A DNA stretch of 52,664 nt from a virus, in IMG/VR virus record IMGVR_UViG_3300029998_000712, positions 1 to 52,664 of that record, one strand, 5' to 3'. Made by a program: the position numbers and the translations under genes. The notes under the pieces are model-generated. The model had not been told where the DNA came from. It made no database searches and saw only the letters and a program-made list of their open reading frames with translations. Each line of letters starts with the position of its first letter. Position 1 is the stretch's first letter. Below are positions 1 through 52,015 of the stretch, in pieces.

Positions 1-126
1 ACTCAAGTAATTATTTATCTCATCAATTGTATAACCGTCTGTTTCTGTCCAATCAACTTTACCTATAACAAAATCTCCAATTTCGTATTTTTTTATTTTA
101 TTTTCAAAGTATTTTAAATGTTTCAT
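1..126 (-). CDS. Small tagged protein, C-terminus outside window
   Basis: Reading leftward from an ATG at 126, 42 codons remain open to the window edge. The product starts MKHLKYFENK and continues with Y-E-I-G-D-F-V-I-G. This is the same N-terminal segment and the same G-D-[YF]-V motif found in the neighbouring small proteins up to 4882, so it is one more member of that family, cut by the window edge. Function unknown. The N-terminus resembles a T4-type capsid-targeting sequence (inference). Confidence 0.75.
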   Translation of the reverse strand, partial: MKHLKYFENKIKKYEIGDFVIGKVDWTETDGYTIDEINNYLS

Positions 127-138
127 AAATTATATTTT

Positions 139-828
139 TTATTGTGGAATTATACTTGTTCCGATTCTATCTACCAGAGATTTAATCTCTTTTATTTGTT
201 CGGTTGTTCTAATACCACCAGTGAATTTTATTTTAACATAATCAGGTAATATTTTTCTCATGAATTTAACTTTCTCAATTTTTTGTTCAAATGATTCATC
301 ATTAGGTAATTTTCCAGTAGATGTAGATATATAATCTACATTATTTTCAATGCACATTCTACAAATTTTTTCAATTTCTTCATTGTTAAGTGCTCCAATT
401 TCAATTGTTAATTTTATGATTGAACCTTCTTTGTGACAATATTCCGTCAATTTTCTTATTTCTGTTTCTAATTCTTCTGTTTTATCTTTTTTTATCAATT
501 CATAATTAAGTACAACATCAATTTCATCAGCTCCATTGACAATTGATTTATCAATTTGATCAAGTTTATATTTTGTGATTGAATTTCCTTTAGGAAAATC
601 AATTAATGCAGATACTTTAATTTCATTTTTAACGAATGATTCTACTGATGCTACAAATTCTGGTAATACAGAAATTGCATAAAAATTATTATCTTCCGCT
701 TCTTTACACAAATCTTTAATTTGATCATTAGTTAAACTATCTGATAATCTAGTATAATCAATTAATTTGTAGTTTTCATTCTTTTCTTTATTATCTAAAT
801 ATTCTAAAATTTTTTTATAGACAATCAT
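139..828 (-). CDS. deoC: Deoxyribose-phosphate aldolase-like protein, Schiff-base lysine missing
   Basis: The 229 residues follow the DeoC TIM-barrel family along their length: D-Y-T near residue 25, the A-D-E-I-D-V-V strand carrying the conserved Asp, a T-I-E-I-G strand, S-T-S-T-G, and K-F-T-G-G-I-R-T near the end. DeoC normally cleaves 2-deoxyribose-5-phosphate to acetaldehyde and glyceraldehyde-3-phosphate, salvaging nucleosides. In E. coli the Schiff-base lysine (K167) lies in K-T-S-T-G; here that position is Ser. The second active-site lysine (K201 in E. coli, K-P-A-G-G) is retained as K-F-T-G-G. The C-terminal tail is also short. The family assignment is firm, but classical aldolase activity is doubtful. 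It lies between small tagged proteins. Confidence 0.85.
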   Translation of the reverse strand: MIVYKKILEYLDNKEKNENYKLIDYTRLSDSLTNDQIKDLCKEAEDNNFYAISVLPEFVASVESFVKNEIKVSALIDFPKGNSITKYKLDQIDKSIVNGADEIDVVLNYELIKKDKTEELETEIRKLTEYCHKEGSIIKLTIEIGALNNEEIEKICRMCIENNVDYISTSTGKLPNDESFEQKIEKVKFMRKILPDYVKIKFTGGIRTTEQIKEIKSLVDRIGTSIIPQ

Positions 829-846
829 GTTTTGAAACCTTATTTT

Positions 847-868
847 TCTATATATATTAAAAAATAAT
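847..868 (+). promoter_or_regulatory. Candidate phage promoter, TATATAT/poly-A motif
   Basis: A tatatatattaaaaaataat block ends about 10 bases before the methylase start at 879. Very similar blocks precede several other genes here (see 6559, 8989, 35108, 40272, 42588, 47453). This is a recurrent motif seen in the sequence; a promoter role is inferred. Confidence 0.35.
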
Positions 869-878
869 AATCAATTTA

Positions 879-1406
879 ATGACTGCAGGAAGAAATAGTA
901 TATCTAAAAATAAAACATGGAACACTCCACCTAAATTTGTAGAATTAATAAATAAAATGTTAGGAGAAGTAGTATTAGATCCATGTAGTAATGAAACTAG
1001 TATGATAGATGCTAAAATTAAATATATTTTACCAACAGATGGATTAAAAGAAAGTTGGAACTATAAAACTTTATTTGTTAATCCTCCTTATGGTTCAGAT
1101 GTTGAAAATAAAACAAGAATATATGATTGGATTAAAAAAGGAGTCGATGCAAATGAAAATTATAAAAGTGAAATTTTGTATCTGATTCCAGTTGCTACTA
1201 ACACTAAGCATTTTAAAGATTTAATATTCAAAAAAGCAAAAGGTTTGTGTTTTTTAAAAGATACAAGATTGAAATTTTGGAGTGAAGGTGTTGAAGATAA
1301 AAAAGGTGCTCCAATGGCTTGCTGCTTCATTTACTTTGGTTCAAATTATGAAAAATTTGATTTGTTGTTTTCTGACTTCGGACAATGTTTTGAAATAAAA
1401 TCATAA
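879..1406 (+). CDS. dam: Phage DNA N6-adenine methyltransferase (PF05869 type)
   Basis: The 175-residue product matches the short phage Dam family. It has W-N-T-P near residue 15, an acidic D-P-C-S-N motif near residue 35 in the place of the SAM-binding motif, and the catalytic N-P-P-Y-G near residue 68, followed by G-A-P-M-A near residue 145. These enzymes methylate adenine N6, usually to protect phage DNA from host restriction or to alter regulation; the site recognised cannot be read from sequence. The gene is rightward, behind a candidate promoter, and its end overlaps the convergent gene 1401-1673 by 6 bases. Confidence 0.85.
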   Translation: MTAGRNSISKNKTWNTPPKFVELINKMLGEVVLDPCSNETSMIDAKIKYILPTDGLKESWNYKTLFVNPPYGSDVENKTRIYDWIKKGVDANENYKSEILYLIPVATNTKHFKDLIFKKAKGLCFLKDTRLKFWSEGVEDKKGAPMACCFIYFGSNYEKFDLLFSDFGQCFEIKS

Positions 1407-1673
1407 ATTGAATTTACTTGTTGTTATAGACATTTTAGATATTTCTAAATCTTCTGATGTTGCTTTTCTTGTAATCTCATCTGGATAAATTTTAACATCA
1501 GGATAGTCATGGCTACCTTGATTTAAAAACTTACATGTGTAACTACCAAAATCATTATCAGATATTATTATCATTGGCTCATCATCTATGTTATTAAATT
1601 CACTGATGACTATTACACAATCGCCAATATTATATTCTTCATCAAATGTCTCAAATATTTTTAAATGTTTCAT
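1401..1673 (-). CDS. Small tagged protein (MKHLKIFE ... KFNL)
   Basis: 90 residues. It begins MKHLKIFETF, has Y-N-I-G-D-C-V-I-V at residues 14-22, and ends T-S-K-F-N-L. The segment R-K-A-T-S-E-D-L-E near residue 70 matches R-K-L-T-S-E-E-I-E in the protein at 4285-4593, so the two are true homologues. The KFNL tail is followed by a convergent gene and not by another start codon, so the tail is not just a by-product of translational coupling. Function unknown; I infer a capsid-targeted internal protein with a small beta-barrel domain. Confidence 0.8.
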   Translation of the reverse strand: MKHLKIFETFDEEYNIGDCVIVISEFNNIDDEPMIIISDNDFGSYTCKFLNQGSHDYPDVKIYPDEITRKATSEDLEISKMSITTSKFNL

Positions 1674-1674
1674 A

Positions 1675-1995
1675 TTATAAATTGAATTTTTTAGAGTCTA
1701 ATGCAAAATTGTATTTTTTGATTTCATCTTGTGGTGCAATATTTAAATAATCAAAATCTTCTGAATTCATCCTCATATAATCATCCTCATAATATTTAGA
1801 ATAATCTATTTTTACTATTAGATTTCCAAATTCAAAGGTATCATGATTATCATAATATTCATAAAATGTGTAGCAATTATTGATTAATTTTATTTTTCCA
1901 ATTGCTACATATCCACCTTTATTCTTATATAAATAAATTTTATTGTAATCTATATCTTCTTTATTTATGTTCTCAAATTTTTTTAAATGATTCAT
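1675..1995 (-). CDS. Small tagged protein (MNHLKKFE ... KKFNL)
   Basis: 106 residues, starting MNHLKKFENI and ending D-S-K-K-F-N-L. Between the ends it is rich in Tyr, Lys and Asp, with no enzyme motif that I recognise. The stop lies one base from the start of the next gene (1673) and the start lies one base from the stop of the gene behind it (1997), so it is part of one leftward transcript. Shares both end tags with its neighbours. Function unknown. Confidence 0.8.
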   Translation of the reverse strand: MNHLKKFENINKEDIDYNKIYLYKNKGGYVAIGKIKLINNCYTFYEYYDNHDTFEFGNLIVKIDYSKYYEDDYMRMNSEDFDYLNIAPQDEIKKYNFALDSKKFNL

Positions 1996-1996
1996 G

Positions 1997-2359
1997 TTAT
2001 AGATTAAATTTGTTTGATTGCCTAATTATATTTAGTTTGTTTAATACATCTTTTGAATTGTTGGATTGATAGATTATTTTATCTTTTATACTTTCAAAAA
2101 ATAATCTTTCTTCGTTTCTTATTTTGTCCCATCTACGATCACAATAATTATCTTCATCTTGATATTCATAAATTATTTTCAAATCTGTATCATAATAATT
2201 ACTATTATTTTTTTCATGCTTTAAAACTTTGAATATTACATATACAGGTTCTTTACCTTCATGATAGAAATTTCTATCCCATCTATCTTTGTGATCAAGT
2301 AAACAAAGAATGTATTCTTTAGGAACATTTAAGTTTTCATATGTTTTCAAATATTTCAT
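1997..2359 (-). CDS. Small tagged protein (MKYLKTYE ... NKFNL)
   Basis: 120 residues, starting MKYLKTYENL and ending R-Q-S-N-K-F-N-L. The middle (Y-V-I-F-K-V-L-K near residue 40, then alternating charged and aromatic residues) suggests a small beta-rich domain. It begins directly at the stop of the upstream gene (2360). No recognised family. Role inferred only from the shared end tags. Confidence 0.8.
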   Translation of the reverse strand: MKYLKTYENLNVPKEYILCLLDHKDRWDRNFYHEGKEPVYVIFKVLKHEKNNSNYYDTDLKIIYEYQDEDNYCDRRWDKIRNEERLFFESIKDKIIYQSNNSKDVLNKLNIIRQSNKFNL

Positions 2360-2941
2360 TTAGTCTATAATTTTTAATTTAGCTCCGCCCTTTATTAACG
2401 TTTTTATATCATCTGTATTTATATTTTCTTTGAATTTAGAAGTTTTCTTTTCTGGTTCTTTTAATAACCAATTATTACCAGAATTAGATGTTTGATAAAT
2501 ATATGTAATATTATCAAGAGTTAATTTTATAGTTTTTGCTGTTAGTTTTTTGTAGAATTCTTCCACTTTTCCTTTTATTGAATATATTTCAATAGGGTAC
2601 CATTTATCATCTTTGTAATATTGTAAAATTATATAATTTGGATTATCTAAAACTGTTTCATCTCTACTATATAGAAAGAAAAATTTCATGTCAATGTCTT
2701 TTCTTAAAAAATTCTCAATTTCCATTGTAGTTTCCATCTCTCCTTTTTTGAGATTCTGTTTAAATAATTGTTGATTAAAATCACTATCATCATATAAAAA
2801 ATCTATAGTTTTTTCTATATAATCATCATTTGATAATCCAATTTTAAAGAAATCTATTTTAGTGTCATTTATACTGTTCAATAATCCATCAACATCGGTT
2901 GTTATTGATTCAGTTATGTATTGTAAATATTTTTTTATCAT
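2360..2941 (-). CDS. Small protein with T4 CTS-like N-terminus
   Basis: 193 residues. The N-terminus, MIKKYLQYITES, is very close to the T4 internal-protein capsid-targeting sequence (MKTYQEFIAEA), including a Tyr, a Q-[YF]-I core and Glu before a small residue. I-T-E/S would fit the prohead-protease consensus. It lacks the KFNL tail and ends K-L-K-I-I-D. The body is rich in Asp, Lys and Tyr with no domain I recognise. Tightly packed with its neighbours (3 bases to the gene behind it). Confidence 0.78.
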   Translation of the reverse strand: MIKKYLQYITESITTDVDGLLNSINDTKIDFFKIGLSNDDYIEKTIDFLYDDSDFNQQLFKQNLKKGEMETTMEIENFLRKDIDMKFFFLYSRDETVLDNPNYIILQYYKDDKWYPIEIYSIKGKVEEFYKKLTAKTIKLTLDNITYIYQTSNSGNNWLLKEPEKKTSKFKENINTDDIKTLIKGGAKLKIID

Positions 2942-2944
2942 TTT

Positions 2945-3211
2945 TTATAAATTAAATTTGTTTGTATTATATTCAATTTCTGATATAAATCTATCACATA
3001 AAAATGTTCCTAAATTTTCACCAATTTTTCCTAATTTACTATTTACTTTACAAACATAATAACCATTTACATTTTTTAATATTTTTTTCACTAAATATAT
3101 CATGTCTTTAGTTAAGATTGAGTCTTCGCTATCTATGCAAATGACATAGTCTCCTTCTTTGAAATTTGGAGTGACTTTTTTTAAATTTTCGTATTTTTTA
3201 ACGTATTTCAT
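2945..3211 (-). CDS. Small tagged protein (MKYVKKYE ... NKFNL) with GDYV motif
   Basis: 88 residues: MKYVKKYENL at the start, F-K-E-G-D-Y-V-I-C-I at residues 17-26, and N-T-N-K-F-N-L at the end. The compact size with the G-D-Y-V strand suggests an SH3-like or KOW-like barrel (inference). It belongs to the same family as 1401-1673, 4285-4593 and 4604-4882. Confidence 0.8.
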   Translation of the reverse strand: MKYVKKYENLKKVTPNFKEGDYVICIDSEDSILTKDMIYLVKKILKNVNGYYVCKVNSKLGKIGENLGTFLCDRFISEIEYNTNKFNL

Positions 3212-3229
3212 TATGTGTGTAATAATTTT

Positions 3230-3649
3230 TTAATCATTATAATTTTTTAACTTTTTAACTTTATCTTTAAATTTACCACCGCCTAACACAGAAGTTGGTA
3301 TAGTGTTTCTATATTGTAAAATTGAAGATGTTATAAGATTTACACTAGCTCCATATGTTTGTTGATCTGGATGAGTCCAATCATCATCTTGTAATATCCA
3401 TACATTCTCTCTTGGATAACAAGATATTATAAATGGATTTTCAGTAACTACTGATTTAACATAACGTTTATAATCAACAGTATCAGCAAATGTCATGGAT
3501 CTTTCTGGATAAAGTATTAAATTGTCATTTTTACTTTCACGAACCAAATCATAGTAATGTTCTTCATTTGCATCATTTCCTTGGAGGAAAACAAAACATT
3601 GTTCGTTTTCCATTATATTTTCTGATTCAAATTTTTTTAAATATATCAT
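3230..3649 (-). CDS. Small protein with family N-terminus, no KFNL tail
   Basis: 139 residues. It starts MIYLKKFESE, matching the family N-terminus with Glu before Ser, but ends L-K-N-Y-N-D. The body (F-V-F-L-Q-G-N-D, then a W-I-L-Q-D-D-D-W stretch near residue 105) is unlike the other members and I recognise no family. A second Met at residue 13 could be a start, but it would remove the conserved segment, so the longer form is preferred. Confidence 0.7.
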   Translation of the reverse strand: MIYLKKFESENIMENEQCFVFLQGNDANEEHYYDLVRESKNDNLILYPERSMTFADTVDYKRYVKSVVTENPFIISCYPRENVWILQDDDWTHPDQQTYGASVNLITSSILQYRNTIPTSVLGGGKFKDKVKKLKNYND

Positions 3650-3685
3650 ATATTTTAATTTTTTTTTTTACTCGAAATTATATAT

Positions 3686-4288
3686 TTACAAATTAAATTT
3701 GTTTGCGTCTTGCTTTATCTCTAACACTGAATATGCGTCATCAAATGAATCAAATTCTTTTATTGTATTCATATCTACGTTGAAACTCATTATTGATTTT
3801 GGTGAATTCTCATATTTAGAGTTTGTATGGTCAAATATTTTCTTTCTTTCTGATTCAGGATAATATGAAAAATGTAATTTTACATTTGGATATTTATTCA
3901 TATATTTAATCCATGGTTCAGAATATTCAACTTCGTATAATCCTATATATTTATCATTTTCTCCTATGATATATTTTTTATAAGTCTTGAATTTTTGTAT
4001 GCCGTCATATAGGTTAGATATTTTAATTAAACAGTTTTTTAAGCTATCAGATTGATATGTAATATTTAATGTGTAATCATTAAATCTAATTGTACCGCTA
4101 ATTTTTTCTAATTTTAATTTAGACTTATCAAACCAATAAAAATATGATAAATCTACAAAATTATTTCTGTTTGATAATTTTACCTTTCCGATATATATCT
4201 TATCAGTTTCATCATCATCTATCATTACGTAGTTGCTGTGTATTTCATTGTATGATTCTTTTATGTATTGTGTATAATTTTTTATCAT
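3686..4288 (-). CDS. Tagged protein (MIKNYTQYIKES ... NKFNL)
   Basis: 200 residues, the largest member of this cluster. The N-terminus MIKNYTQYIKES closely resembles the T4 capsid-targeting sequence, with I-K-E/S as a possible prohead-protease site, and the C-terminus is Q-D-A-N-K-F-N-L. So one protein carries both the clearest CTS-like start and the KFNL tail. The body shows beta-like alternation (Y-V-M-I-D-D-D, then D-K-I-Y-I-G-K-V-K-L) but no known domain. Its start overlaps the stop of 4285-4593 by 4 bases. Confidence 0.8.
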   Translation of the reverse strand: MIKNYTQYIKESYNEIHSNYVMIDDDETDKIYIGKVKLSNRNNFVDLSYFYWFDKSKLKLEKISGTIRFNDYTLNITYQSDSLKNCLIKISNLYDGIQKFKTYKKYIIGENDKYIGLYEVEYSEPWIKYMNKYPNVKLHFSYYPESERKKIFDHTNSKYENSPKSIMSFNVDMNTIKEFDSFDDAYSVLEIKQDANKFNL

Positions 4289-4593
4289 ATATTAAATTTT
4301 AATGACTTTTTTGTTATTTCAAATTCTTCTATTTCTTCTGATGTTAATTTTCTTTCAAAATATTTTTCTTCTAAATAATATGTAACTATATCATTATCTT
4401 CTATTACTTCAAGAATATATCTATCATCATTTTTTGCGTTTAATCCAGTTATTTTTGCAAATTTGAAAACATCATTAGATATTCCAGATTTATTTTTCTT
4501 CCAGAACTTTAGATAATCATCTTTAAATAAAATGTAATCACCAACTTCATAGTTTGTGATTATATATTCTTCATATAATCTAATATTTTTCAT
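4285..4593 (-). CDS. Small tagged protein (MKNIRLYEEY ... LKFNI) with GDYI motif
   Basis: 102 residues: MKNIRLYEEY start, Y-E-V-G-D-Y-I-L-F-K at residues 15-24, and K-S-L-K-F-N-I end. The stretch before the tail, R-K-L-T-S-E-E-I-E, aligns with the protein at 1401-1673. It overlaps the next gene by 4 bases, implying coupled translation. Function unknown. Confidence 0.8.
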   Translation of the reverse strand: MKNIRLYEEYIITNYEVGDYILFKDDYLKFWKKNKSGISNDVFKFAKITGLNAKNDDRYILEVIEDNDIVTYYLEEKYFERKLTSEEIEEFEITKKSLKFNI

Positions 4594-4603
4594 ATGATTT
4601 TTC

Positions 4604-4882
4604 TCATAAATTGAATTTTCTTGTATTTAAAATTGATTCTACATCTTCTTTTCTTTTTGAATGATAATAGATGTCTGTTTTCTTCCACCATATATTATCT
4701 GTTTTACATTTTAATTTTATGTTGTGTCCATCAATTGCTGAATTATCTAATGATGTGACTTCACAAGGATTTATAAAAAAATGATTAAATTTCGGATGAC
4801 ATGCTGTATTATTTTTAATGATAACATAGTCTCCTACTTCTATTTTATCTGATTTATCTTCAAATGTTTTTATGTATCTCAT
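4604..4882 (-). CDS. Small tagged protein (MRYIKTFE ... RKFNL) with GDYV motif
   Basis: 92 residues and the first gene of the leftward cluster. It has MRYIKTFEDK, then I-E-V-G-D-Y-V-I-I-K at residues 15-24, and ends T-R-K-F-N-L. The same MRYIKTFED start occurs at 38792-39193, about 34 kb away. A tttttaatatatag block lies 10-25 bases upstream on the coding strand and may be its promoter, divergent from the AAA+ gene at 4956. Confidence 0.8.
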   Translation of the reverse strand: MRYIKTFEDKSDKIEVGDYVIIKNNTACHPKFNHFFINPCEVTSLDNSAIDGHNIKLKCKTDNIWWKKTDIYYHSKRKEDVESILNTRKFNL

Positions 4883-4955
4883 AGTTAATCTATATATTAA
4901 AAATAAACTATTAAAAAATTATATCATATATTATTTAAAATAAAGTATTATAATA

Positions 4956-10258: not shown

Positions 10259-10442
10259 TTATGTTATTTATTTTTTCTTTTCTTAAAAATATGTTTGCAT
10301 CTTTATAAAAAGATATGAAAATTTTTTTATAATTTATAAATTCTTCTATTTTTATGTGCTCAATATTTTTATTTATCAACATTTCATTTATATATTTTAA
10401 ATATAAACCATATGCTATATTATCAAGTTCTGATGCTGTCAT
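10242..10442 (-). CDS. Hypothetical small protein
   Basis: 66 residues, Ile/Lys/Asn-rich with no recognised motif. It overlaps the gene behind it by 4 bases (ATGA type) and the gene ahead by 17 bases, which supports it as a real, translationally coupled gene. Confidence 0.55.
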   Translation of the reverse strand: MTASELDNIAYGLYLKYINEMLINKNIEHIKIEEFINYKKIFISFYKDANIFLRKEKINNINEKLL

Positions 10443-10771
10443 TTGTATATTTTTTTTAGCTTATCTTTTCTTAATTTTCTCAATCTGCTTATTTTATTAA
10501 CATTTTTAAAAAAACTAATTACAGTTGAGCAATTACTATTATGTATAAAAATATAAACGTCTATATATATGGAGTCTATTTCTATGTTGTTTGTTTCATC
10601 GCATATAACTTTATATAAATTTATATTGTTATTAGATATATTTTTATTTAGAATATTAGATATATAAGATTTTATCATGTACCTTGAATTACTATTATTT
10701 TCAGATATAATTAAATCATCTAATAATTTGTATATTTCATTTTGTATTGTTTGAATCATTATAATATTCAT
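10439..10771 (-). CDS. Hypothetical protein
   Basis: 110 residues, no recognised domain; ends in a Lys/Arg-rich tail. The first 35 bases overlap the end of the PfkB kinase gene. A start at the internal Met at codon 5 (10759) is also possible and would shorten the overlap. Confidence 0.55.
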   Translation of the reverse strand: MNIIMIQTIQNEIYKLLDDLIISENNSNSRYMIKSYISNILNKNISNNNINLYKVICDETNNIEIDSIYIDVYIFIHNSNCSTVISFFKNVNKISRLRKLRKDKLKKIYK

Positions 10772-11714
10772 TTAGTAATCTATTTTTATCAATTGAAACT
10801 ACTCCAACTTTTTCACATGCAATTCCTCCTGCTAAATTTGAAATTTTTGCTATCTCTTCTATTTCTATATCATTAATTAACATTGATAAAACAGATATAA
10901 CAGAATCACCAGCACCAGACACATCAATTATGTTTCTTTGTGTTGTAGGTATTATCTTACTTATTATTTTACCTTCTTTTTTATAAGAAATAAATATACC
11001 ATTTTCTGATAGTGTAATAAATATAATATTTATTCCTTTATTATGAAGTATAATGGATCCTTCTTTAAGTAGTTCATTTTTATCTGATATATTTAAATTA
11101 ATACTTTCTTTGAATTCCTTAAAATTTGGTTTGAATAGTTTAATATTTTCGTAATAGTTGAAATTTTTTTTCTTAGGATCTACTAATATAGAAATTCCTA
11201 ATGAATTTGCTTTTTCGATTATAATTTTTATTATGTTTTCATTTAATACTCCTTTATCATAATCTTGAAATAACACGCAATCTACATGTTCATTTTCTAT
11301 TGTTGAGATAACCAATGAAATTAGGTTATCTGATTCATTATTTAAATCTTCAGTTATTTCTTCATCTATTCTTAAAATTTGGCATTTATTTCCAATTATT
11401 CTGGTTTTGTTTGTAGTTATTCTGATGCTAGATTGAATAATATAATTTGTTGATATTTCTTTTTCTTTCAATAAAGATAATATTGCATCTCCATTATTAT
11501 CTTTACCGATAACTGAGCATAATATAGGAGTACCACCAAGATTTTTTATGTTGTATGCTACGTTTGCAGCTCCGCCTAATTTATTTTCTTTTTTTATTAT
11601 ATCTACAATTGGTACAGGTGCTTCTGGTGAAATTCTATCAACATTACCAAAAAAATAAGAATCGAGCATAACATCTCCTATGATTAATATTTTTTTATTT
11701 TTAAATATTGTCAT
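10737..11714 (-). CDS. PfkB-family kinase, heptose-7-phosphate kinase (HldE/RfaE domain I)-like
   Basis: 325 residues over the full PfkB fold. D-V-M-L-D near residue 14, S-P-E-A-P-V-P near 29 and G-G-A-A-N-V-A near 47 are typical of the HldE/RfaE N-terminal kinase rather than of ribokinases. D-P-K-K near 181 and the anion hole with catalytic Asp, D-V-S-G-A-G-D-S, near 264-271 are intact. HldE domain I phosphorylates D-glycero-D-manno-heptose-7-phosphate for lipopolysaccharide core synthesis; the nucleotidyltransferase domain is absent here. It sits in the baseplate operon, immediately after the hub lysin, which is an odd place for a sugar kinase. Its substrate in the phage is unknown. Confidence 0.82.
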   Translation of the reverse strand: MTIFKNKKILIIGDVMLDSYFFGNVDRISPEAPVPIVDIIKKENKLGGAANVAYNIKNLGGTPILCSVIGKDNNGDAILSLLKEKEISTNYIIQSSIRITTNKTRIIGNKCQILRIDEEITEDLNNESDNLISLVISTIENEHVDCVLFQDYDKGVLNENIIKIIIEKANSLGISILVDPKKKNFNYYENIKLFKPNFKEFKESINLNISDKNELLKEGSIILHNKGINIIFITLSENGIFISYKKEGKIISKIIPTTQRNIIDVSGAGDSVISVLSMLINDIEIEEIAKISNLAGGIACEKVGVVSIDKNRLLNEYYNDSNNTK

Positions 11715-11771
11715 TTATAAAAAATTATTTATGGAGTTATATAAATATTTATAAAAAAAGTTTTATAGATT

Positions 11772-13616
11772 TTATGCAAATACTGTTCCGCCTATTGTTA
11801 CTCCACCACTTGCAAGTAATTTGTTTCTATATCCAATATTAGTTCCTGCTCCATACGCTTTTGATGATGCTGCTGTGAATTTTACTATATTTTTAGGAAC
11901 TTTTGATAATATATAAATTGCAGACTGAAATATACTTTTTTGATTTTTAGCATTTGGACCATCTGTAAAATTTTTACTTGGTCTGTGTCCATTTGCATTT
12001 GTTCCAGTGACAGATTGAAATTGATTTTTTGCTGTCAATATAGAATATACACTATTTGATCCTCCTTTTGTTCTAGCTCTATTTAACATTACAGCCATAC
12101 ACCAAGCTCTTTCTTCAGTATTATGGGATGCTTCTGCGTATACCGCTCTTATTAACATATTCCATTCTGTTTCACTCATTTTTCTACCCAAATATGAATC
12201 TGCTGATTTTTTAGCTAACTCTGCACTAACAGAATCACCAATAACTATAGGAGAGCCGTATATATCTTCCAATGATATATTATTGTTTACATCACATGGT
12301 ATGCTTGATGATGATGCAGAATATGAACTACCTTTATATTCTCCTTTTCCTGTATTTGAACCTTTTTGAGCATCTCCTTTTCTTACTGGCCATTCAAAAT
12401 ATAATTCGGGATCAACTTTTTTATTTGCTGGAGTAGTTACTGAGAAATGTAAATGTGGTCCTGTCGTGTGTCCTCCAGTGTTTCCTACTAAGCCTATTGG
12501 ATTTCCTGTTTTTACAATTGAATTTGCATTGACTAACATTTTACTCAAATGACAATATCCAGTTTTGAAACCATTTGTGTGTTTTATTACAATTGTGTTT
12601 CCTCCTCCATATTGACTATCAAATGATGCTGATACTACAATACCGTCAAATGAACTTACCACAACAGTTCCTATTGGTGCTGCTATATCTAATCCTGCAT
12701 GAAATGTCACTCCTTCTCCTTTAAGTTGTCTTGGTCCAAATCTACATGATACTCTAACACCTAATAATGGAAGAACCATTTCTGAACTTGTTGGTATATA
12801 ATCTGTTGCAGTGTTTGATTTTAATTCTTCACATCCAGCGGAGTTTAACATATTTATACGATTTAATAAGTTTGCATAATCAGCATCATTTGGCATTATC
12901 AAATCAGTGTCATTTACTGAACTAAATGTTTCTGATGGTCTTTCCGCTGAACTAACAGCTCCATTATCAACAATTTTAACATTTCTTGATACAAAATCTT
13001 CTCTTATCGCTGTGTACTCATCACATATCATATCAAGTTTTGTCTTTATTAGTGGTCCTCCAATACTATCAATCATTGATGTTACGCTTCTAAATTCATT
13101 TATAAATTTATCCATCCAATCAAAAAATCTTGTGCCTAATACTGCTTCTTGACCTGCGTTTTTTGATCCTAAATTTAATGTTTGAGTATTGTCTTTAAGT
13201 TCTAAATTTATAGAATCTCTTTCTAATGAAAGTTTATTATAATAATAATCAAGAGATAGTGATGTATCATCTGAATATATTTGTGTTCTATCATCATATA
13301 ATAATGCAGTGAATCTTGTATATTCATCATCACTTAACCCGTTAAGTCTAGTTTGTAAATTTATATTATTATTCTCTGAATATATATAATATGGTGAATA
13401 TAAATCATCTGATAAGTAAAGAATATTAACTAATTTACCAATTGCTGGAACAGAAAATTCTTTTCCACTTAAATCTCCAAATGGATAAGCCCATGGAATA
13501 TCTTTAACATCAATTCCATGATATAATGTTTGCACTCTTACTTTTATTCTACCTTTTTTTGCTGAATCAATATTTTCTTCTACTATTCCAACGTAAAAAT
13601 CTCTTAATAATTCCAT
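11772..13616 (-). CDS. gp5-like baseplate hub with M23 peptidase and SleB-type hydrolase domains
   Basis: 614 residues. Residues 1-90 look like the OB domain of T4 gp5 / phage spike proteins (F-Y-V-G-I-V-E, G-R-I-K-V-R-V). Residues about 285-400 form an M23/LytM zinc endopeptidase, with H-A-G-L-D near 305 and the G-P-H-L-H-F motif near 392. Residues about 478-614 match cell-wall hydrolase 2 (SleB): R-A-V-Y-A-E-A, then N-Q-F-Q-S-V. T4 gp5 has a lysozyme instead. The protein probably forms the needle hub and locally digests peptidoglycan by cutting peptides and, with the SleB-type domain, glycan or amide bonds. It lies directly behind the gp27-like hub genes. Confidence 0.85.
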   Translation of the reverse strand: MELLRDFYVGIVEENIDSAKKGRIKVRVQTLYHGIDVKDIPWAYPFGDLSGKEFSVPAIGKLVNILYLSDDLYSPYYIYSENNNINLQTRLNGLSDDEYTRFTALLYDDRTQIYSDDTSLSLDYYYNKLSLERDSINLELKDNTQTLNLGSKNAGQEAVLGTRFFDWMDKFINEFRSVTSMIDSIGGPLIKTKLDMICDEYTAIREDFVSRNVKIVDNGAVSSAERPSETFSSVNDTDLIMPNDADYANLLNRINMLNSAGCEELKSNTATDYIPTSSEMVLPLLGVRVSCRFGPRQLKGEGVTFHAGLDIAAPIGTVVVSSFDGIVVSASFDSQYGGGNTIVIKHTNGFKTGYCHLSKMLVNANSIVKTGNPIGLVGNTGGHTTGPHLHFSVTTPANKKVDPELYFEWPVRKGDAQKGSNTGKGEYKGSSYSASSSSIPCDVNNNISLEDIYGSPIVIGDSVSAELAKKSADSYLGRKMSETEWNMLIRAVYAEASHNTEERAWCMAVMLNRARTKGGSNSVYSILTAKNQFQSVTGTNANGHRPSKNFTDGPNAKNQKSIFQSAIYILSKVPKNIVKFTAASSKAYGAGTNIGYRNKLLASGGVTIGGTVFA

Positions 13617-38757: not shown

Positions 38758-38793
38758 AAAAAAAAGAGAGAAATTTAATTTCTCTCTTTTTTT
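38758..38793. terminator. Bidirectional intrinsic terminator after sheath gene
   Basis: A perfect hairpin agagagaaa/tttctctct is flanked by A and T runs. It sits between the convergent sheath gene and the tagged gene 38792-39193. Confidence 0.85.
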
Positions 38794-39193
38794 ATATTCT
38801 AAATTTTTCTGCACTTTTTGCTAATTCTAATTCCTCCTCCAATTTACCTTTTTTGTGATTATATAAAGTGAAAGTTTGTGATAAATTTATTTTTTTATCT
38901 GTCAACTGGTACCATCGTTTATTCATTTTAACTAATATATCATATTCATAAACATTTCTGTATTCAGAAACTAAATCAACATCTTCAATTCTACCAGTTT
39001 TGCTAATATTATCATATGTATAATTACCTTCATTGTCATAATTTTTAAAACATTGAAATGTTATTATATTATTTAATATCATTTCTTTAAGTAAATCAAA
39101 AAAATCAATATCATATGTTAAGCAATCATCCATTAATTTTTTAATTGATATTACTGTATTTTTTAAATCTTCAAAAGTTTTTATATATCTCAT
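38792..39193 (-). CDS. Small tagged protein (MRYIKTFED ... EKFRI)
   Basis: 133 residues. The start MRYIKTFED is identical to the protein at 4604-4882, and the end S-A-E-K-F-R-I is a variant of the KFNL tail. The body is Asn/Asp/Tyr-rich with W-Y-Q-L-T near residue 95. It has no gene just downstream on its strand. It lies between the sheath gene and two more tagged proteins on the opposite strand. Confidence 0.75.
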   Translation of the reverse strand: MRYIKTFEDLKNTVISIKKLMDDCLTYDIDFFDLLKEMILNNIITFQCFKNYDNEGNYTYDNISKTGRIEDVDLVSEYRNVYEYDILVKMNKRWYQLTDKKINLSQTFTLYNHKKGKLEEELELAKSAEKFRI

Positions 39194-39239: not shown

Positions 39240-39596
39240 ATGAAGTATTTGAAAATTTATGAAGAATACAAATATTCTGATATTAAAATAGGAAATTATG
39301 TTGTACTAAATATAAAAAAAAATGATATTTGGAACGGAAGCTCTGATGCTAAAAAAAATAAAATAGTAGAATTTACTAATAATACAATAGGAGAAATTGT
39401 TGATATAAATAAAGGTTATTATGAGTTAGAGATAGAAGTTAAATATACTAATATTCCATTTGATATTAAATTTTATTTCGATAAAGATAATTCGATTATT
39501 GTTGGTACAAAAGAAATTCTTGACTTATCAGAAGAAAAACAGGATTTGATTGATAGATATAAATTAAGACAAAATGTGAATAAATTTAATATATAA
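39240..39596 (+). CDS. Small tagged protein (MKYLKIYEEY ... NKFNI) with GNYV motif
   Basis: 118 residues. MKYLKIYEEY start, D-I-K-I-G-N-Y-V-V-L-N at about 14-24 (a variant of the G-D-Y-V motif), and N-V-N-K-F-N-I end. Diverges from the tagged gene at 38792 across a 46-base gap that has a tttaatatata block. Three bases separate it from the next tagged gene. Confidence 0.8.
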   Translation: MKYLKIYEEYKYSDIKIGNYVVLNIKKNDIWNGSSDAKKNKIVEFTNNTIGEIVDINKGYYELEIEVKYTNIPFDIKFYFDKDNSIIVGTKEILDLSEEKQDLIDRYKLRQNVNKFNI

Positions 39597-39599
39597 TAT

Positions 39600-40127
39600 A
39601 TGAAATTGAAAAGATTTAATGAAAGTGTTGATGAAGATAGTACATATATAGATATACTATATGATAAAATTAAAACTGATAATAAAATAATTAATGGATT
39701 TGAGTTTTATGTGGATTATGGTTCAGGTGCTTTTACATGGGGTAATCATGATTTTTATGTATATGCTACTCCATATTGGGAAGATGAACAATTCCTTCCG
39801 ATTTCAGTTTCAAATTTTGATGGAGATGAGATTTATGATAGACAAATAAAATTGAAAGTTCTGAATTCTAAAAAATCTGTTGATAATTTTATAAATTACT
39901 ATTATGAAATAATAAATTCATTAACTTTAGATTTGAATAAAATATCAGAATTATATGAAGTTATTCCAATACTAACAAATAAATATAATAGAATAAAAAT
40001 TGATAATTTGACTATAACATCGATTGAAGATATAAAAGAAAGTAATTTTGATGAGGTAATTAAAATATATGATTTTTTAATTGAAAAATATCCTGAATTA
40101 TTTTTAACATCAAAATATAACATATAA
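39600..40127 (+). CDS. Small tagged protein (MKLKRFNES ... SKYNI)
   Basis: 175 residues. MKLKRFNESV resembles the T4-like prohead-targeting start, with F-N-E/S as a possible cleavage site. It ends L-T-S-K-Y-N-I, the Tyr form of the tail. Nothing follows for 177 bases, so the tail is not shaped by a downstream start. No known domain. Function unknown. Confidence 0.75.
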   Translation: MKLKRFNESVDEDSTYIDILYDKIKTDNKIINGFEFYVDYGSGAFTWGNHDFYVYATPYWEDEQFLPISVSNFDGDEIYDRQIKLKVLNSKKSVDNFINYYYEIINSLTLDLNKISELYEVIPILTNKYNRIKIDNLTITSIEDIKESNFDEVIKIYDFLIEKYPELFLTSKYNI

Positions 40128-43875: not shown

Positions 43876-44319
43876 ATGCTTAAAAAATTTAAAGACTTTT
43901 TCTCAAATAGAAATGTGATTTATGTTCCAGATGAAGATAAAGAATCTCAGGAAGAATTAAATGATAATTTGAACAAATCAATTCGTACTTGTGATTATTT
44001 TTTATTCGACGATTCAATAAATAAAGGCGCAGATATTAATAATGTTACATTTGGTGGAAAGGATAGTGACAATGATGATTATTATGTATCTCCTTTGGTA
44101 TTGTGTGTTATATACGATAGATTAAAGATGTTAAAAAAATTAATTGATTTGAATGTAAATTTAATTAATGTTATTACTGATGATGATATTTATGATTATA
44201 TTAAGGATCTAATGAAGACTTCTGATAGTGAAAAAGCTATAAAATATATTATTAAAAAAAATCCAGATTTTATGAAAGATATTGAAGCAATAAAAAATAC
44301 AAAAAAATTTAACATTTAA
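43876..44319 (+). CDS. Ankyrin-like small tagged protein (... KKFNI)
   Basis: 147 residues. I-N-K-G-A-D-I-N-N-V near residue 49 followed by S-P-L-V-L-C-V-I-Y-D-R-L-K-M-L-K-K-L-I-D-L-N-V-N-L at 75-96 is an ankyrin-repeat pattern. The start, MLKKFKDFFS, is related to the family N-terminus and the end is N-T-K-K-F-N-I. No gene follows directly (76 bases), so the tail is not due to coupling. Likely a protein-binding effector or internal protein (inference). Confidence 0.7.
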   Translation: MLKKFKDFFSNRNVIYVPDEDKESQEELNDNLNKSIRTCDYFLFDDSINKGADINNVTFGGKDSDNDDYYVSPLVLCVIYDRLKMLKKLIDLNVNLINVITDDDIYDYIKDLMKTSDSEKAIKYIIKKNPDFMKDIEAIKNTKKFNI

Positions 44320-44613: not shown

Positions 44614-45102
44614 ATGGTAAAATTTGATGAGTATATAGTTGAATTTAAAAAATATCAGGTAAAAGAAAAAGAACAGAAATCTCATAAACTTTCTGGAGTT
44701 GTTCTAATATGTAATAATAAAATATTATTAGTAAGACCAAAAAAATTCAAGAAAAAAGAGAAAAAATGGTCAATTCCAAAGGGTCATATTGAGGATGATA
44801 TGGGTAAGATAAAGACAGCAATAGCTGAATTAAGGGAAGAAGCTGGAATAAAAATCACAAAGAAGCAAATCAATTCTAGTGATAAATTTGTAATAGAATA
44901 TGAAAAATCTGGAATAAAAAAAAATTTAACTTGTTATGTTGTAGATATTGAATATGGTGATATCAACATAAAACTAGTTAATGACATGATTTTGAAGAAC
45001 TTTTTAAAAAATGAGATTGTTGAAGCTGGATTCTTTTCAAAAAAAGATGCAGTAGAACTTATAGAAGATAATCAATTAGATATACTAAAAATTTTAAAAT
45101 AA
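44614..45102 (+). CDS. Nudix hydrolase-like protein
   Basis: 162 residues. After a CTS-like start (MVKFDEYIVEF), L-S-G-V-V-L-I-C-N-N-K-I-L-L-V-R near residue 27 begins a Nudix fold. W-S-I-P-K-G-H-I-E-D-D then A-E-L-R-E-E-A-G-I at about 74-81 forms the Nudix helix. The Glu residues that bind metal (E-x-x-E-E) are kept, but the usual first Glu is Met and the usual Arg is Ala. It may hydrolyse a nucleoside diphosphate-linked compound. It lies 1 base before a HAD-like enzyme. Confidence 0.75.
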   Translation: MVKFDEYIVEFKKYQVKEKEQKSHKLSGVVLICNNKILLVRPKKFKKKEKKWSIPKGHIEDDMGKIKTAIAELREEAGIKITKKQINSSDKFVIEYEKSGIKKNLTCYVVDIEYGDINIKLVNDMILKNFLKNEIVEAGFFSKKDAVELIEDNQLDILKILK

Positions 45103-47482: not shown

Positions 47483-48736
47483 ATGAGAAATCTATATTCA
47501 AAGAATGAATTTTTAAATATTCATAATGATAGCAAATCAATAAATGAAGGAATATTTAGCTTTATAGGTAAATTATTTAATACCATTTCAACTTATATAA
47601 AAAAAGTAAAAGGAGGTCAAGAAATTCAAGATATATATGTAAAATACTTAAAAAAGATTAATGATGATATTAAGAAAAAAGTTCAAGTTGATTTAAATTT
47701 AACTGCTGAGGGACAAATAAATTCAACAACTACAACCACTTCTTCTGTTGCTACTTCTCCTTCTAAAATTTCTGCTCCTGCTGCTCCTTCAACTGTTTCT
47801 TCTGATAAACAGACTACAACTAATAATTCATCTGAAAATGACGTGAAAAAAGAAAGCAATAAAGTAAGAGTTCATTTAAAAAATAAATTAAATGAAGCTG
47901 ATGTTGCAACTGCAGTTAATAATGTTGCAAACAAAGTTAATGATGTAAAGAATACTATTAATCAAGCTAAAGAAACAATAGCACCAAGTACAGAGACAAA
48001 AGAAGCAGGAACAAATATTAAAATGACAATATCAGCATTGAAAGATAAAGCTAAACTTATTCAGCAAATAATTGATGCTGATGCAGAAGTCGCAAAAAAT
48101 GAAATGAATAGAGTTTTAGCTAAATATGGTGGTCAAGAAAAAAATCCAAAATTAGCTACTATAATAGCAAACAAAGTAGATGAATTTAAATTGGCATTTT
48201 TAAATGCAAAAATAAAAATATACGATGCAGGCGGAGATAAAACAGCATCAATAGAAGTTGCTAAGAATAGAGATATATTATCTAAACAATTAGATGAAAA
48301 ATGGAAAAATTTATCAAAAGAACAACAGTCTGGACAATCAACAGATTTGAAAATTGGAGATACTGTAAAATTTCATTCCGATGCATTAAATAAAGATGTA
48401 GAAGAAAAAATAATTAAAGTAGAAGGAGATACATTAACTTTCAATGGTACTAATGGTGAATTTACTAAAAAGAAAACTGATGTAACTAAAATTCAGCCTG
48501 CTGAGAAACCTGCTGAGAAACCTGTTAAAACAGAATATACAGAGGGAGATAAAATTAGTTGGACTCCAGATGGAGGAAATCAAGAAATAATTAGAACTAT
48601 AACTAAAGTAGATGGTGATACATTAACATTCAAAGAGGGTGATAAGCCAGATGGTAAAGATATGACAAAAAAAGCAGAAAATGTCAAAAAAATAGAAGCA
48701 AAACCAGCAGCAGCACAAGTAAAAGAAACAAAATAA
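47483..48736 (+). CDS. Candidate prohead/internal virion protein with two SH3-like repeats
   Basis: 417 residues. The N-terminus (residues 1-28) contains S-I-N-E-G, and L-N-E-A-D occurs near residue 136; both fit the T4 prohead protease consensus (I/L-x-E, then A/G). Between them are a helical region and a Thr/Ser/Ala-rich linker. The C-terminus has two repeats, I-G-D-T-V-K-F-H-S-D near 290 and E-G-D-K-I-S-W-T-P near 355, each ending G-D-T-L-T-F, like small beta-barrels and like the G-D-Y-V motif of the small tagged proteins. I infer a core or packaged protein. Confidence 0.6.
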   Translation: MRNLYSKNEFLNIHNDSKSINEGIFSFIGKLFNTISTYIKKVKGGQEIQDIYVKYLKKINDDIKKKVQVDLNLTAEGQINSTTTTTSSVATSPSKISAPAAPSTVSSDKQTTTNNSSENDVKKESNKVRVHLKNKLNEADVATAVNNVANKVNDVKNTINQAKETIAPSTETKEAGTNIKMTISALKDKAKLIQQIIDADAEVAKNEMNRVLAKYGGQEKNPKLATIIANKVDEFKLAFLNAKIKIYDAGGDKTASIEVAKNRDILSKQLDEKWKNLSKEQQSGQSTDLKIGDTVKFHSDALNKDVEEKIIKVEGDTLTFNGTNGEFTKKKTDVTKIQPAEKPAEKPVKTEYTEGDKISWTPDGGNQEIIRTITKVDGDTLTFKEGDKPDGKDMTKKAENVKKIEAKPAAAQVKETK

Positions 48737-48737: not shown

Positions 48738-49583
48738 ATGAATATAATATCTTATAATAATTATTTGACAGAGAGTTCACAATCATCTATTTCTGAGTTT
48801 TTAAAATCTCAGTATGATAAAATATTTCCTGATCCAACACAATCATTAAATAATTTATTCTCATCTTTTATAAAAAGTTTAGATGTGGAAAAAAATGTAT
48901 CTATTCTATATCAGACATATTTAAAAAATAGTCAATCACTTACTCAAAATGAAATAAATAATTCAAAAACTATAATTGATGTTGATAAAGTATTAACAGA
49001 AAGTATCAAATATTTTTATTTTTCATTGAAACCTATTGTTAATAAATTACAAAATGATGACTTTACTATTAATGAAATATTTAGTAGATCAAGAGATAAA
49101 AGATTGCTTACATTGATGAGTTATCCAGAAGACCAATTTTCAAATGCTATATCAACGTATTCTACCACTATAATATCTGAAATTAAATCATCTGCAAATA
49201 TTATAACTGGAACTACTACTACTAATACCGCACCAACTACTGTTTCAGAATCAATAAATGATAGAATCAATTATAAGATTAGTAGAATTTTAGAAGCTGA
49301 TGATATTTCTATTGTGACTAATTTATTAAATTATAAAAAAGCTGCAATAAATTGGATTAATATAACATTATTTGATTCTATTAAACCAAAACTTCAATTA
49401 TTAAGACAATTAGGAGTGAATACTAGTAATAGTGTAGATCAATTAGCTAATCAAATGAAAGGTACTACAAATGAAAATGCTAAAAAAATTATTCTTAATA
49501 AAATTATTAATATGAATAAAGAAGAATTACAAAAATTGGTTGATTCATTAGGTTTAACAAAAGATGAATTAGGAGATTTATAA
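48738..49583 (+). CDS. Candidate prohead core/internal protein
   Basis: 281 residues, helical. The N-terminus MNIISYNNYLTESS is CTS-like with L-T-E/S, and R-I-L-E-A-D near residue 192 fits the prohead-protease consensus I-x-E/A. It begins one base after the stop of the 417-residue protein, with the same general architecture (CTS-like start, linker of Thr/Ser near 156, internal cleavage-like site). This suggests the two proteins act together in the prohead. Confidence 0.6.
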   Translation: MNIISYNNYLTESSQSSISEFLKSQYDKIFPDPTQSLNNLFSSFIKSLDVEKNVSILYQTYLKNSQSLTQNEINNSKTIIDVDKVLTESIKYFYFSLKPIVNKLQNDDFTINEIFSRSRDKRLLTLMSYPEDQFSNAISTYSTTIISEIKSSANIITGTTTTNTAPTTVSESINDRINYKISRILEADDISIVTNLLNYKKAAINWINITLFDSIKPKLQLLRQLGVNTSNSVDQLANQMKGTTNENAKKIILNKIINMNKEELQKLVDSLGLTKDELGDL

Positions 49584-49597: not shown

Positions 49598-49975
49598 ATG
49601 GAAATACAAAAATTTGAAGCCTATAAATATAGAGGGAAAAAATTAGATGTGATAAATAGAAAGGAATTCATTAATGAAATTAGTGATATTTTTGCATCTG
49701 AAATGTTTGGTTATAATAATAATGGTACATCTTATTATCCTGATTTAGAAACATTAAATATTTATTTGCATAATGATGAAACAGGAGAAGATAGAACAAT
49801 AAAATTGGATTTGTCTGATATGGGCATAGAAATTGGACACACAGATTGGTATGATGAAGAAGAAGCAGAAAATCATGATGACTTAGGTGTATTTGTTCCA
49901 GAAAGAAATTTAGATTTACCAATAACTAAAGCTTATAAATCACAAAAAGGTGATATGAACAAATTTAATATATAA
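49598..49975 (+). CDS. Small tagged protein (MEIQKFEAYKY ... NKFNI)
   Basis: 125 residues. The start MEIQKFEAYK is a variant of the family N-terminus and the end is G-D-M-N-K-F-N-I. The middle (D-L-E-T-L-N-I-Y-L-H-N-D, then I-K-L-D-L-S-D-M-G) is mixed alpha/beta and acidic. It is followed by a Bacteroidota-type promoter and not by a coupled gene, so the tail is a protein-level feature. Confidence 0.75.
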   Translation: MEIQKFEAYKYRGKKLDVINRKEFINEISDIFASEMFGYNNNGTSYYPDLETLNIYLHNDETGEDRTIKLDLSDMGIEIGHTDWYDEEEAENHDDLGVFVPERNLDLPITKAYKSQKGDMNKFNI

Positions 49976-50373: not shown

Positions 50374-50775
50374 ATGAAAGTGAATAAATTTGAGGAAACA
50401 ACTAATAAAATTATACATATTGACGGAAAGTATTTTTCAAATGATTCTGTTTCAATAACAAACAGTCGTGAAATACTGAATTATATGGTTAATATTCAAA
50501 CTCATGCATTTCAAGATAATAAATTAACATTAACTAGTAATTTAATTGAGCCTTTAACAAAAATTTTTGGCACTCAAAACAAAACAATTAGAAGTGAGTT
50601 TATGTTGAAATTGTGGATTTTAAAATTTAAAGATTTGACATTTAATGTTTATACAGCAAAGAATCGAGGAACATCTTATGAAGTTTGTGATTATTCTTAT
50701 GAAGATGTTCGCAATGGCAAAATAGATAAAAAAATTATTGAGTTCTTAGAAGAGTTATATAAATTAATTAATTAA
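50374..50775 (+). CDS. Hypothetical protein with family-like start
   Basis: 133 residues. The start MKVNKFEETT resembles the family N-terminus but the tail is E-L-Y-K-L-I-N. The middle contains L-K-L-W-I-L-K-F-K-D-L-T-F-N-V-Y-T, a beta pattern. Shares one base with the next gene's ATG, so the two are translated together. Function unknown. Confidence 0.65.
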   Translation: MKVNKFEETTNKIIHIDGKYFSNDSVSITNSREILNYMVNIQTHAFQDNKLTLTSNLIEPLTKIFGTQNKTIRSEFMLKLWILKFKDLTFNVYTAKNRGTSYEVCDYSYEDVRNGKIDKKIIEFLEELYKLIN

Positions 50776-51684: not shown

Positions 51685-51702
51685 CTTTTTAAATAATTAA
51701 TT

Positions 51703-51781
51703 GGTCCTGTAGTGGCAGAATTTCCTAAATTCTATGTGCATAATGGAATGAAAAATGAGAGTTCGAGTCTCTTCTGGATCA
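51703..51781 (+). tRNA. tRNA-Arg(CCT)-like, D-arm reduced
   Basis: Acceptor GGTCCTG pairs with CTGGATC (one T-T mismatch), the T-arm is GAGAG-TTCGAGT-CTCTT, and the discriminator is A before CA. An anticodon arm AGAAT-TTCCTAA-ATTCT gives anticodon CCT. Only 7 bases lie between acceptor and anticodon stem, too few for a normal D-arm, while about 23 bases separate anticodon and T arms. The neighbour at 51795 has compensatory changes in the same anticodon stem, supporting this fold. Confidence 0.55.
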
Positions 51782-51794
51782 CAAAATAAATAAT

Positions 51795-51873
51795 GGCCTT
51801 GTAATGGCGGAGTTTTCTAAACTCTATGTGCATAATGGAATGAAAAATGAGGGTTCAACCCCCTCCTGGGTCA
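51795..51873 (+). tRNA. tRNA-Arg(TCT)-like, D-arm reduced
   Basis: Near duplicate of 51703-51781. Acceptor GGCCTTG with CTGGGTC (one T-T mismatch), T-arm GAGGG-TTCAACC-CCCTC, and anticodon arm GGAGT-TTTCTAA-ACTCT giving TCT. The region between anticodon and T arms is almost identical to its neighbour. The D-arm is again reduced to 7 bases. Confidence 0.55.
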
Positions 51874-51884
51874 CAGTAAAATAT

Positions 51885-51943
51885 CAGGTGTATGTGGTAG
51901 TGTCAGGATCAGGCACAAGGAAGTTCGACTCTTCTTCACCTGA
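51885..51943 (+). tRNA. tRNA-like element, D-arm reduced, anticodon unclear
   Basis: Acceptor CAGGTG pairs with CACCTG and the T-arm is GGAAG-TTCGACT-CTTCT, with discriminator A then CA. A stem GTGTC/GGCAC encloses AGGATCA, but this loop lacks the T expected at position 33, so the anticodon cannot be assigned. Only 59 bases long. It may be a decayed or non-standard tRNA. Confidence 0.4.
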
Positions 51944-52015
51944 CAATTATTATTGTAATATTTAATAATATAAAAGAGTTCTTTGATATTTGAAAAAATA
52001 AAATAGTTTAATTAT

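Follow-up and report, generated by a model that had tools for sequence, protein, structure and literature searches.

The viral DNA analysed here, IMG/VR record IMGVR_UViG_3300029998_000712 (positions 1–52,664, all 52,664 nucleotides (nt), hereafter the window), opens at positions 1–4882 with an array of small genes on the minus strand whose products begin with a common short peptide (N-tag) and mostly end in a second one (C-tag). A reading of the sequence alone had claimed about ten small proteins with a common N-terminus in this region, and ten such open reading frames (ORFs) are present. Two start in a form close to that of the internal proteins of bacteriophage T4 (MIKKYLQYITES and MIKNYTQYIKES, class I tag) and eight with M-[KRNI]-x-[LIV]-[KR]-x-[FY]-E. 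A C-terminal KFN[LI] is present in eight of the ten; neither this peptide nor the spread of such genes over the whole genome had been part of that reading.

The first gene of the array (4604–4882; 92 residues, MRYIKTFE followed by D, ending KFNL) is preceded on the same strand by a promoter-like element, TTAATATATA (4891–4900), of the kind also found at the tail sheath gene. It is followed by 4285–4593 (102 residues, MKNIRLYE-E to KFNI; hyphens mark candidate cuts), 3686–4288 (200 residues, class I tag MIKNYTQYIKE-S, ending KFNL), 3230–3649 (139 residues, MIYLKKFE followed by S, without C-tag), 2945–3211 (88 residues, MKYVKKYE followed by N, ending KFNL), 2360–2941 (193 residues, class I tag MIKKYLQYITE-S, without C-tag), 1997–2359 (120 residues, MKYLKTYE followed by N, ending KFNL), 1675–1995 (106 residues, MNHLKKFE followed by N, ending KFNL) and 1401–1673 (90 residues, MKHLKIFE-T to KFNL). 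The last member (1–126, start MKHLKYFEN) is cut by the end of the window; its full copy at 55158–55490 of the larger contig G001 encodes 110 residues and ends KFNL. Among these genes lie a convergent Dam-like gene (879–1406) and, on the minus strand, a DeoC/LacD-like aldolase without a clear tag (139–828; Pfam PF01791, E 3.6e-12), whose homologue in the genome LR756501.1 (337628–338419) begins with the class I tag MVKNFDKFVREA. For nine array proteins, Pfam gave nothing above the cut-off and PHROGs no match with a known function. The product of 2360–2941 has homologues with a similar start in the related records G002, G003, G004 and LR756501.1 (93, 86, 72 and 35% identity), and its AlphaFold model is poor (mean predicted local distance difference test score 54).

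The window is 99.996% identical to positions 2620–55283 (reversed) of G001, an incomplete IMG/VR contig of 235 kilobases (kb). Its tail sheath protein is 51% identical to that of LR756501.1 (735 kb), 40% to that of LR756502.1 and 39% to that of LR745206.1; all four records matching over more than 80% of the sheath are genomes of 634–735 kb with 39–51% identity, two of the four being equal in length and values. According to PMC7162821, its five genomes above 634 kb form the Mahaphage clade with predicted Bacteroidetes hosts. Judged by its structural genes, which are close to those of the 634–735 kb genomes, the window phage is a Mahaphage-like huge phage. A search with the sheath in bacterial genomes confirmed no relative.

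Two terminal peptides on mostly unrelated proteins

ORFs were called mechanically (first ATG, longest first) and are not curated genes. The analysis covered the first 400 of 642 kb of LR756502.1, the first 400 of 635 kb of LR745206.1, 160 kb of LR756500.1, 320 kb of Lak-A1 and 60,000 of the 61,481 bases of G007, which overlaps G002 and was omitted from the counts of N-tag excess. The tag patterns were composed after inspection of G001 and LR756501.1 and later widened, and chance was modelled by 500 shuffles of residues 2–16 within each protein (ORFs of at least 60 residues in G001). The N-tag pattern occurs in 48 of 376 ORFs of G001 against a shuffled mean of 8.7 (standard deviation 2.8, maximum 22). 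Observed and shuffled values are 87/961 and 22.8 in LR756501.1, 77/559 and 12.2 in LR756502.1, 48/531 and 12.0 in LR745206.1, 24/136 and 3.5 in G002, 25/154 and 3.9 in G003, and 18/130 and 3.8 in G004; none of 500 shuffles matched the observed count in any of the seven tested genomes or contigs of the group. Internal methionines served as a further control, with the class I tag at 8/395 starts and 0/994 internal Met and the class II tag at 36/395 and 9/994, respectively. T4 itself has the pattern in 7/245 ORFs against 4.0 after shuffling (43 of 500 shuffles reach 7), and the start MKTYQEFIAEA occurs there twice. There is no excess in Tenacibaculum phage PTm1 (3/282), Lak-A1 (3/299) or Flavobacterium phage MaF61 (2/182). 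A DNA pattern for the strict form MKHLKxYKIFE hit 28 viral contigs in 30 stretches; five of these contigs are 248–476 kb long, and the two longest have two stretches each.

The claim that the bodies differ while the N-terminus stays constant is borne out. After removal of the end tags, the 60 N- or C-tagged bodies of G001 fall into 53 BLAST clusters, similarity being limited to one cluster of six, the largest, and two pairs. The sequence-only reading had proposed a search of related phages for the same N-terminus on unrelated bodies, and this gave 94 bodies in 76 clusters, 55 in 51, 96 in 69, 32 in 25, 26 in 23 and 18 in 17, with 12 bodies of LR756502.1 in a single cluster. A leader of about 10–20 residues is common to otherwise unrelated proteins, as expected of a T4-type signal. 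It also precedes known domains: Pfam NT5C begins at residue 13, radical SAM at residue 22 and, in the window, the NUDIX domain of 44614–45102 (plus strand, start MVKFDEYIVE; PF00293, E 1.1e-10) at residue 28. These Pfam scans of tagged proteins comprised 132 of 141 and 123 of 146 references, the remainder being dropped by eye; of the 54 and 39 families, the first 25 each were covered. Moreover, the match of the LR756501.1 glutamyl-tRNA synthetase (GltX) to solved enzymes begins at residue 22–29, corresponding to residue 1–4 of the chain in 2cfo, 8i9i, 1j09, 1g59 and 2ja2. In this protein (133267–134895) about 25 residues stand ahead of the catalytic domain and end in MKE-S, which is near but not strictly [LI]xE. 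Ribosomal protein S21, which has N-terminal extensions in huge phages according to PMC7162821, was considered as a tag bearer and rejected, as the S21 ORFs of LR756501.1 and LR756502.1 begin without the tag.

At the other end, 41 of the 376 G001 proteins terminate in K[FY]N[LIVM], against an expectation of 0.07 calculated from internal positions (13 hits in 69,872); the corresponding numbers are 18/136 in G002, 16/154 in G003 and 15/130 in G004, there mostly as KYNL. The two tags go together: with the wider pattern [KR][FY][NR][LIVM], 37 of 42 G001 proteins also fit a loose N-pattern, compared with 62 of 334 others (p 3e-19), and in a set of 648 distinct ORFs taken from 41 related loci an even looser N-pattern covers 65 of the 68 C-tag proteins. 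Seven longer G001 proteins have propeptide-like starts, and one of these (385 residues) carries a C-tag (KFNM). Across 90 distinct C-tag proteins, in whose profile K and N are set by the search pattern, position −6 holds T, S or A in 75 and position −7 holds D or N in 50, neither being required by the pattern. We compared nonsynonymous and synonymous substitution rates (dN, dS) in 29 pairs, some of which are paralogues with a common target. The dN/dS ratio (dS in brackets) comes to 0.13 (0.72) in the last four residues, 0.26 (0.59) in residues 2–10, 0.43 (0.67) in the body and 0.45 (0.87) in residues −8 to −5, so that the last four residues are under the strongest purifying selection of the regions compared. 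Because dN/dS is low at the ends while dS is similar to that of the body, both ends are conserved at the level of protein, not DNA, and can be explained without invoking recent exchange of sequence from gene to gene.

The C-tag differs between lineages. The Mahaphages LR756501.1, LR756502.1 and LR745206.1 have the same kind of N-tag as the window phage, but none of their N-tagged proteins ends in K[FY]N[LIVM] (0/95, 0/94 and 0/55). Of the 1018 ORFs of LR756501.1, 91 contain the motif DPYGEE, in most cases with x-W behind it; its position is often within the last ten residues and otherwise near the start or inside. Among ORFs of at least 60 residues, 33 of 90 with DPYGEE and 171 of 871 others fit the loose N-pattern (p 3e-4). 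Since its codons vary, DPYGEE is likewise a protein-level motif. A DNA pattern for DPYGEE[DN]W found 71 stretches on 27 IMG/VR contigs, with up to 11 per stretch; among the papers searched, DPYGEE occurs in one, on yeast peptides. Separately, a second C-terminal pattern of about R-x-x-[KR]-[LI]-x-x-[LI] lies near the end of 34/389 ORFs in G001, 45/580 in LR756502.1 and 55/549 in LR745206.1, with about one expected from random internal ends, and of 2/1002 in LR756501.1. The listed carriers are mostly small, an example in the window being 10439–10771 (minus strand), and a sheath-type promoter element precedes 2/34, 0/45 and 1/55 of these genes in G001, LR756502.1 and LR745206.1, respectively.

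Likeness to the T4 capsid-targeting signal

In T4, the first ten residues of IPIII are enough for entry into the capsid; residues 4 and 7 are chiefly responsible for targeting and residues 8 and 10 for processing, and an Asp at position 10 stops processing but not targeting (PMC9026906). All four of these positions fit in the start of the window NUDIX protein. The sequence-only reading had likened the array N-terminus to this signal, which in T4 is cut after Glu. The likeness stands with respect to spacing, in that all ten array members have a hydrophobic or aromatic residue and, three positions on, an aromatic one at 4/7 or 5/8, a pair that is itself part of the search pattern, but less so with respect to identity, the first residue of the pair not being Tyr in most. 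A strict [LI]xE site occurs in only four of the ten, and cleavage after Glu is therefore doubtful for the other six. In-register [LI]xE is present in 11/26 tagged proteins of G002, 12/18 of G004, 52/95 of LR756501.1, 46/94 of LR756502.1 and 21/55 of LR745206.1, the range by genome, G001 and G003 included, being 29–67%. Our reading is that the targeting residues are kept in all tagged proteins and the processing residues in some only, which would be possible because T4 mutants separate the two functions.

Candidate machinery for such a signal is found in relatives. A gp21-like protease domain lies within a protein of 781–807 residues (55% identity between LR756501.1 and G002/G007), and the protease together with a gp23-like capsid protein, related to T4 gp23 with E 2.9e-7, was found in G002, G007, LR756501.1, LR756502.1 and LR745206.1. 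Candidate cuts ahead of the conserved stretch of these capsid proteins, identified by eye, read HQMNE-N, HQINE-N, HSINE-N, HELYE-N and HSMNE-N. In LR756501.1, two class I-tagged proteins of 361 and 341 residues, whose starts run ...HYKNFVNE-A and ...YNYNGFLFE-A, are encoded 8–15 kb from the protease and capsid genes. The same genome contains repeated pieces of its own capsid and protease genes at 11314–11850, 145582–146127, 497197–498567, 542353–542832 and 619760–620383, several of these ORFs also with DPYGEE.

Tagged genes also share promoter-like elements with the sheath gene. Words resembling T[TA]ATATATA, a motif derived on G001, LR756502.1 and LR756501.1 and scored 10–70 nt upstream of genes with an upstream gap, are enriched 5' of starts and occur before the sheath gene and before a gene with weak likeness to a baseplate hub. 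In the genomes of derivation they precede 16/24 tagged and 42/186 untagged genes of G001 (p 2e-5), 35/46 and 69/247 of LR756502.1, and 29/43 and 118/467 of LR756501.1. Outside the derivation set, the values are 24/29 and 81/283 in LR745206.1 (p 1.6e-8), 10/15 and 28/81 in G003, and 7/11 and 19/66 in G004. A putative early element, TA[TC]nTTTG, which we take to be the Bacteroidota housekeeping −7 box, stands before 0/24 tagged and 25/186 untagged genes in G001 (p 0.086) and 2/46 and 39/247 in LR756502.1 (p 0.04), the difference being insignificant in the other four genomes. These upstream sequences suggest that tagged genes are expressed late.

Compared with known systems, the arrangement resembles that of T4 IPI, IPII, IPIII and Alt in having a short N-terminal peptide with key residues three apart and [LI]xE in some members, one leader on unrelated, mostly small bodies, and a gp21-like protease and gp23-like capsid protein, here in relatives. 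The T4 proteins Ip1–3 are likewise described as lacking mutual homology beyond the leader (PMC12373910). It differs from T4 in the share of proteins bearing the pattern, in its two tag registers, in the frequent N or S after Glu, in the tagged enzymes, in the C-terminal tag and in the many members without a cut site. In phiKZ-like phages such as SPN3US, proteins are packaged with the genome and trimmed by the prohead protease after Glu, but their propeptides comprise 20–254 residues with an AxE motif, and a short shared array tag is not mentioned in the consulted passages of PMC10052503. Among the matches listed from the literature on capsid targeting in jumbo or huge phages or mahaphages, mostly freely readable papers, no title or opening of an abstract describes such tags in huge phages. 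For the C-tag no counterpart was found in the literature, where the peptide KFNL itself was looked for in one phrase only. Encapsulin cargo-loading peptides, short C-terminal peptides that load unrelated cargo into an HK97-fold shell, are comparable to it by general description, the encapsulin shell being cellular.

Probable capsid addressing and competing explanations

We consider it probable that the window phage and its relatives possess a T4-type capsid-targeting system that has been enlarged to dozens of cargo proteins and complemented by a lineage-specific C-terminal tag. Sequence evidence, as far as it goes, supports the view of the N-terminus as a capsid-targeting-like, modular delivery signal. 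In such a system, the tagged proteins would be made late in infection, the spaced hydrophobic or aromatic residues of the tag would bind to the prohead core, and the proteins would be enclosed along with it; a gp21-like protease would remove the tag where [LI]xE is present, and the bodies would leave the particle with the DNA and enter the next cell. K-[FY]-N-[LI] at the C-terminus, best read as the new and lineage-specific element, would provide a second docking signal, chiefly for small accessory cargo and probably to the same core or to the capsid lining. A role against host defences is plausible by analogy with T4 Ip1–3, which are injected and inhibit the host defence GmrSD (PMC12373910). 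Of 123 tagged proteins scanned in LR756502.1 and LR745206.1, one falls into the SMODS-associated NUDIX family (PF18167, E 4e-30), and one protein matches the RT-associated NUDIX model of PADLOC.

More tentatively, and as a possibility that we would not call probable, Mahaphages may use a two-address code for virion cargo, in which a T4-like N-peptide and a C-peptide that varies by lineage (here KFN[LI] or KYNL) load the products of about a tenth of the genes, from small barrels to enzymes like glutamyl-tRNA synthetase, for delivery at infection. If capsid addressing holds, the largest phages would carry tens of different particle proteins, selected by short peptides recognisable in the sequence alone. 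Candidate first-minute effectors could then be listed for phages that have no cultured host, many hypothetical proteins would form a class open to testing, and genomes of such size would be partly explained. The C-terminal tag would represent a loading or sorting signal of a new type, whose differences between lineages would permit direct tests of its reader.

Several observations weigh against capsid addressing. In eight of the ten array members the spaced pair begins with L, I or V, where T4 has Tyr, and in-register [LI]xE is limited to 21/49 tagged proteins of G001 and 9/31 of G003. Neither the protease (PF03420) nor the capsid gene was found in the window or in the incomplete 235-kb contig, so the pairing of tag, protease and capsid rests on relatives, in which the protease matches stay under the Pfam cut-off (best 25.1 bits, cut-off 27) and the cut of T4 gp23 (FLTE-A) sits in a different alignment column from the capsid cuts judged by eye. 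The putative early element precedes some tagged genes in relatives (2/46, 2/29, 2/43, 1/15 and 2/11). Furthermore, several solved GltX chains align almost residue for residue at equal numbering (26 to 26, 22 to 21), perhaps owing to added tags, the alignment of one solved NUDIX chain begins at residue 4 of the window protein, and relative to solved 5'(3')-nucleotidases the extension of the tagged nucleotidase amounts to only 4–9 residues. Finally, the C-tag is without a known partner, and the T4 model leaves a conserved C-terminus unexplained.

An alternative is that the N-tag targets proteins to the capsid while the C-tag acts as a stability or degradation signal instead of in packaging, an explanation that overlaps with capsid addressing on the N-tag and would suit a peptide that is short, located at the extreme C-terminus and lineage-specific. 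We regard it as rather unlikely, although a serious contender; the near confinement of the C-tag to proteins with the loose N-pattern indicates one shared route. Distinctly less likely is that the tags are addresses for another site unrelated to the capsid, such as a replication body, a membrane or a host protein. The residue spacing and, in many members, the cut site agree with the T4 capsid signal, the promoter-like elements are those of the sheath gene, and in LR756501.1 two class I-tagged proteins are encoded near the protease and capsid genes, while such an address would account for the many tagged proteins without a canonical cut site and for the DPYGEExW ORFs of the 735-kb relative, some of which start with a membrane segment (by eye) and many of which lack the N-tag.

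Two further explanations deny the tags an addressing role. A gene family that arose by tandem duplication and retained its ends while the middles diverged, the ends having no signalling role, would fit the similar bodies that do exist in G001 and LR756502.1, but the number of clusters among the 60 bodies, the different known domains behind the tag and the purifying selection, stronger at the ends than in the body at similar dS, make it very improbable. That the ends are signals at the level of DNA or RNA, such as A-rich translation starts together with a sequence over the last codons that acts as a promoter or in coupling, we find scarcely credible. It is true that AAATTTAATATATAA resembles the promoter-like TTTAATATATAA and that the stop codon after KFNI, read as ...ATATGA, in several cases shares bases with the start codon of the next gene; yet synonymous changes are about as frequent at the ends as in the body, the codons of KFN[LI] vary (TTT/TTC, AAT/AAC, TTA/TTG/CTA/ATA/ATT), and for 15 of 41 C-tag genes no codirectional gene lies within 60 nt, what looks by eye like a terminator coming directly after the stop in several of them.

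Further tagged genes and other features of the window

Beyond the array, additional tagged genes are found in the right part of the window. The minus-strand gene 38792–39193 encodes 133 residues from MRYIKTFE to KFRI (KFNI in G003). It is followed on the plus strand by 39240–39596 (118 residues, MKYLKIYE to KFNI) and 39600–40127 (175 residues, MKLKRFNES to KYNI). The model of the 39240–39596 product shows a small barrel-like body with confidence (mean 84.6) and weak ends (about 45 for residues 1–10, 60 for the last block). Foldseek gave no match in PDB or BFVD at E <= 0.001 and VIA-align only unrelated small barrels (best Z 6.2), and the protein was therefore assigned no function.

The following genes are all on the plus strand. 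A protein of 147 residues (43876–44319) runs from MLKKFKDFFS to KFNI. Downstream of the NUDIX gene, 47483–48736 encodes 417 residues with a longer propeptide-like start ending SINE-G, for which tblastn against the phage collection gave no match, and 48738–49583 encodes 281 residues with the class I tag MNIISYNNYLTE-S and similar starts in G002, G003 and G004. These are followed by 49598–49975 (125 residues, MEIQKFEAY to KFNI) and 50374–50775 (133 residues, MKVNKFEET, without C-tag). In G001, large paralogues that begin M[IV]NIQL[AV]SEEWV, several with a sheath-type promoter element, stand in a row over about 212000–232400. At the right end of the window, seven transfer RNA genes occupy 51687–52651.

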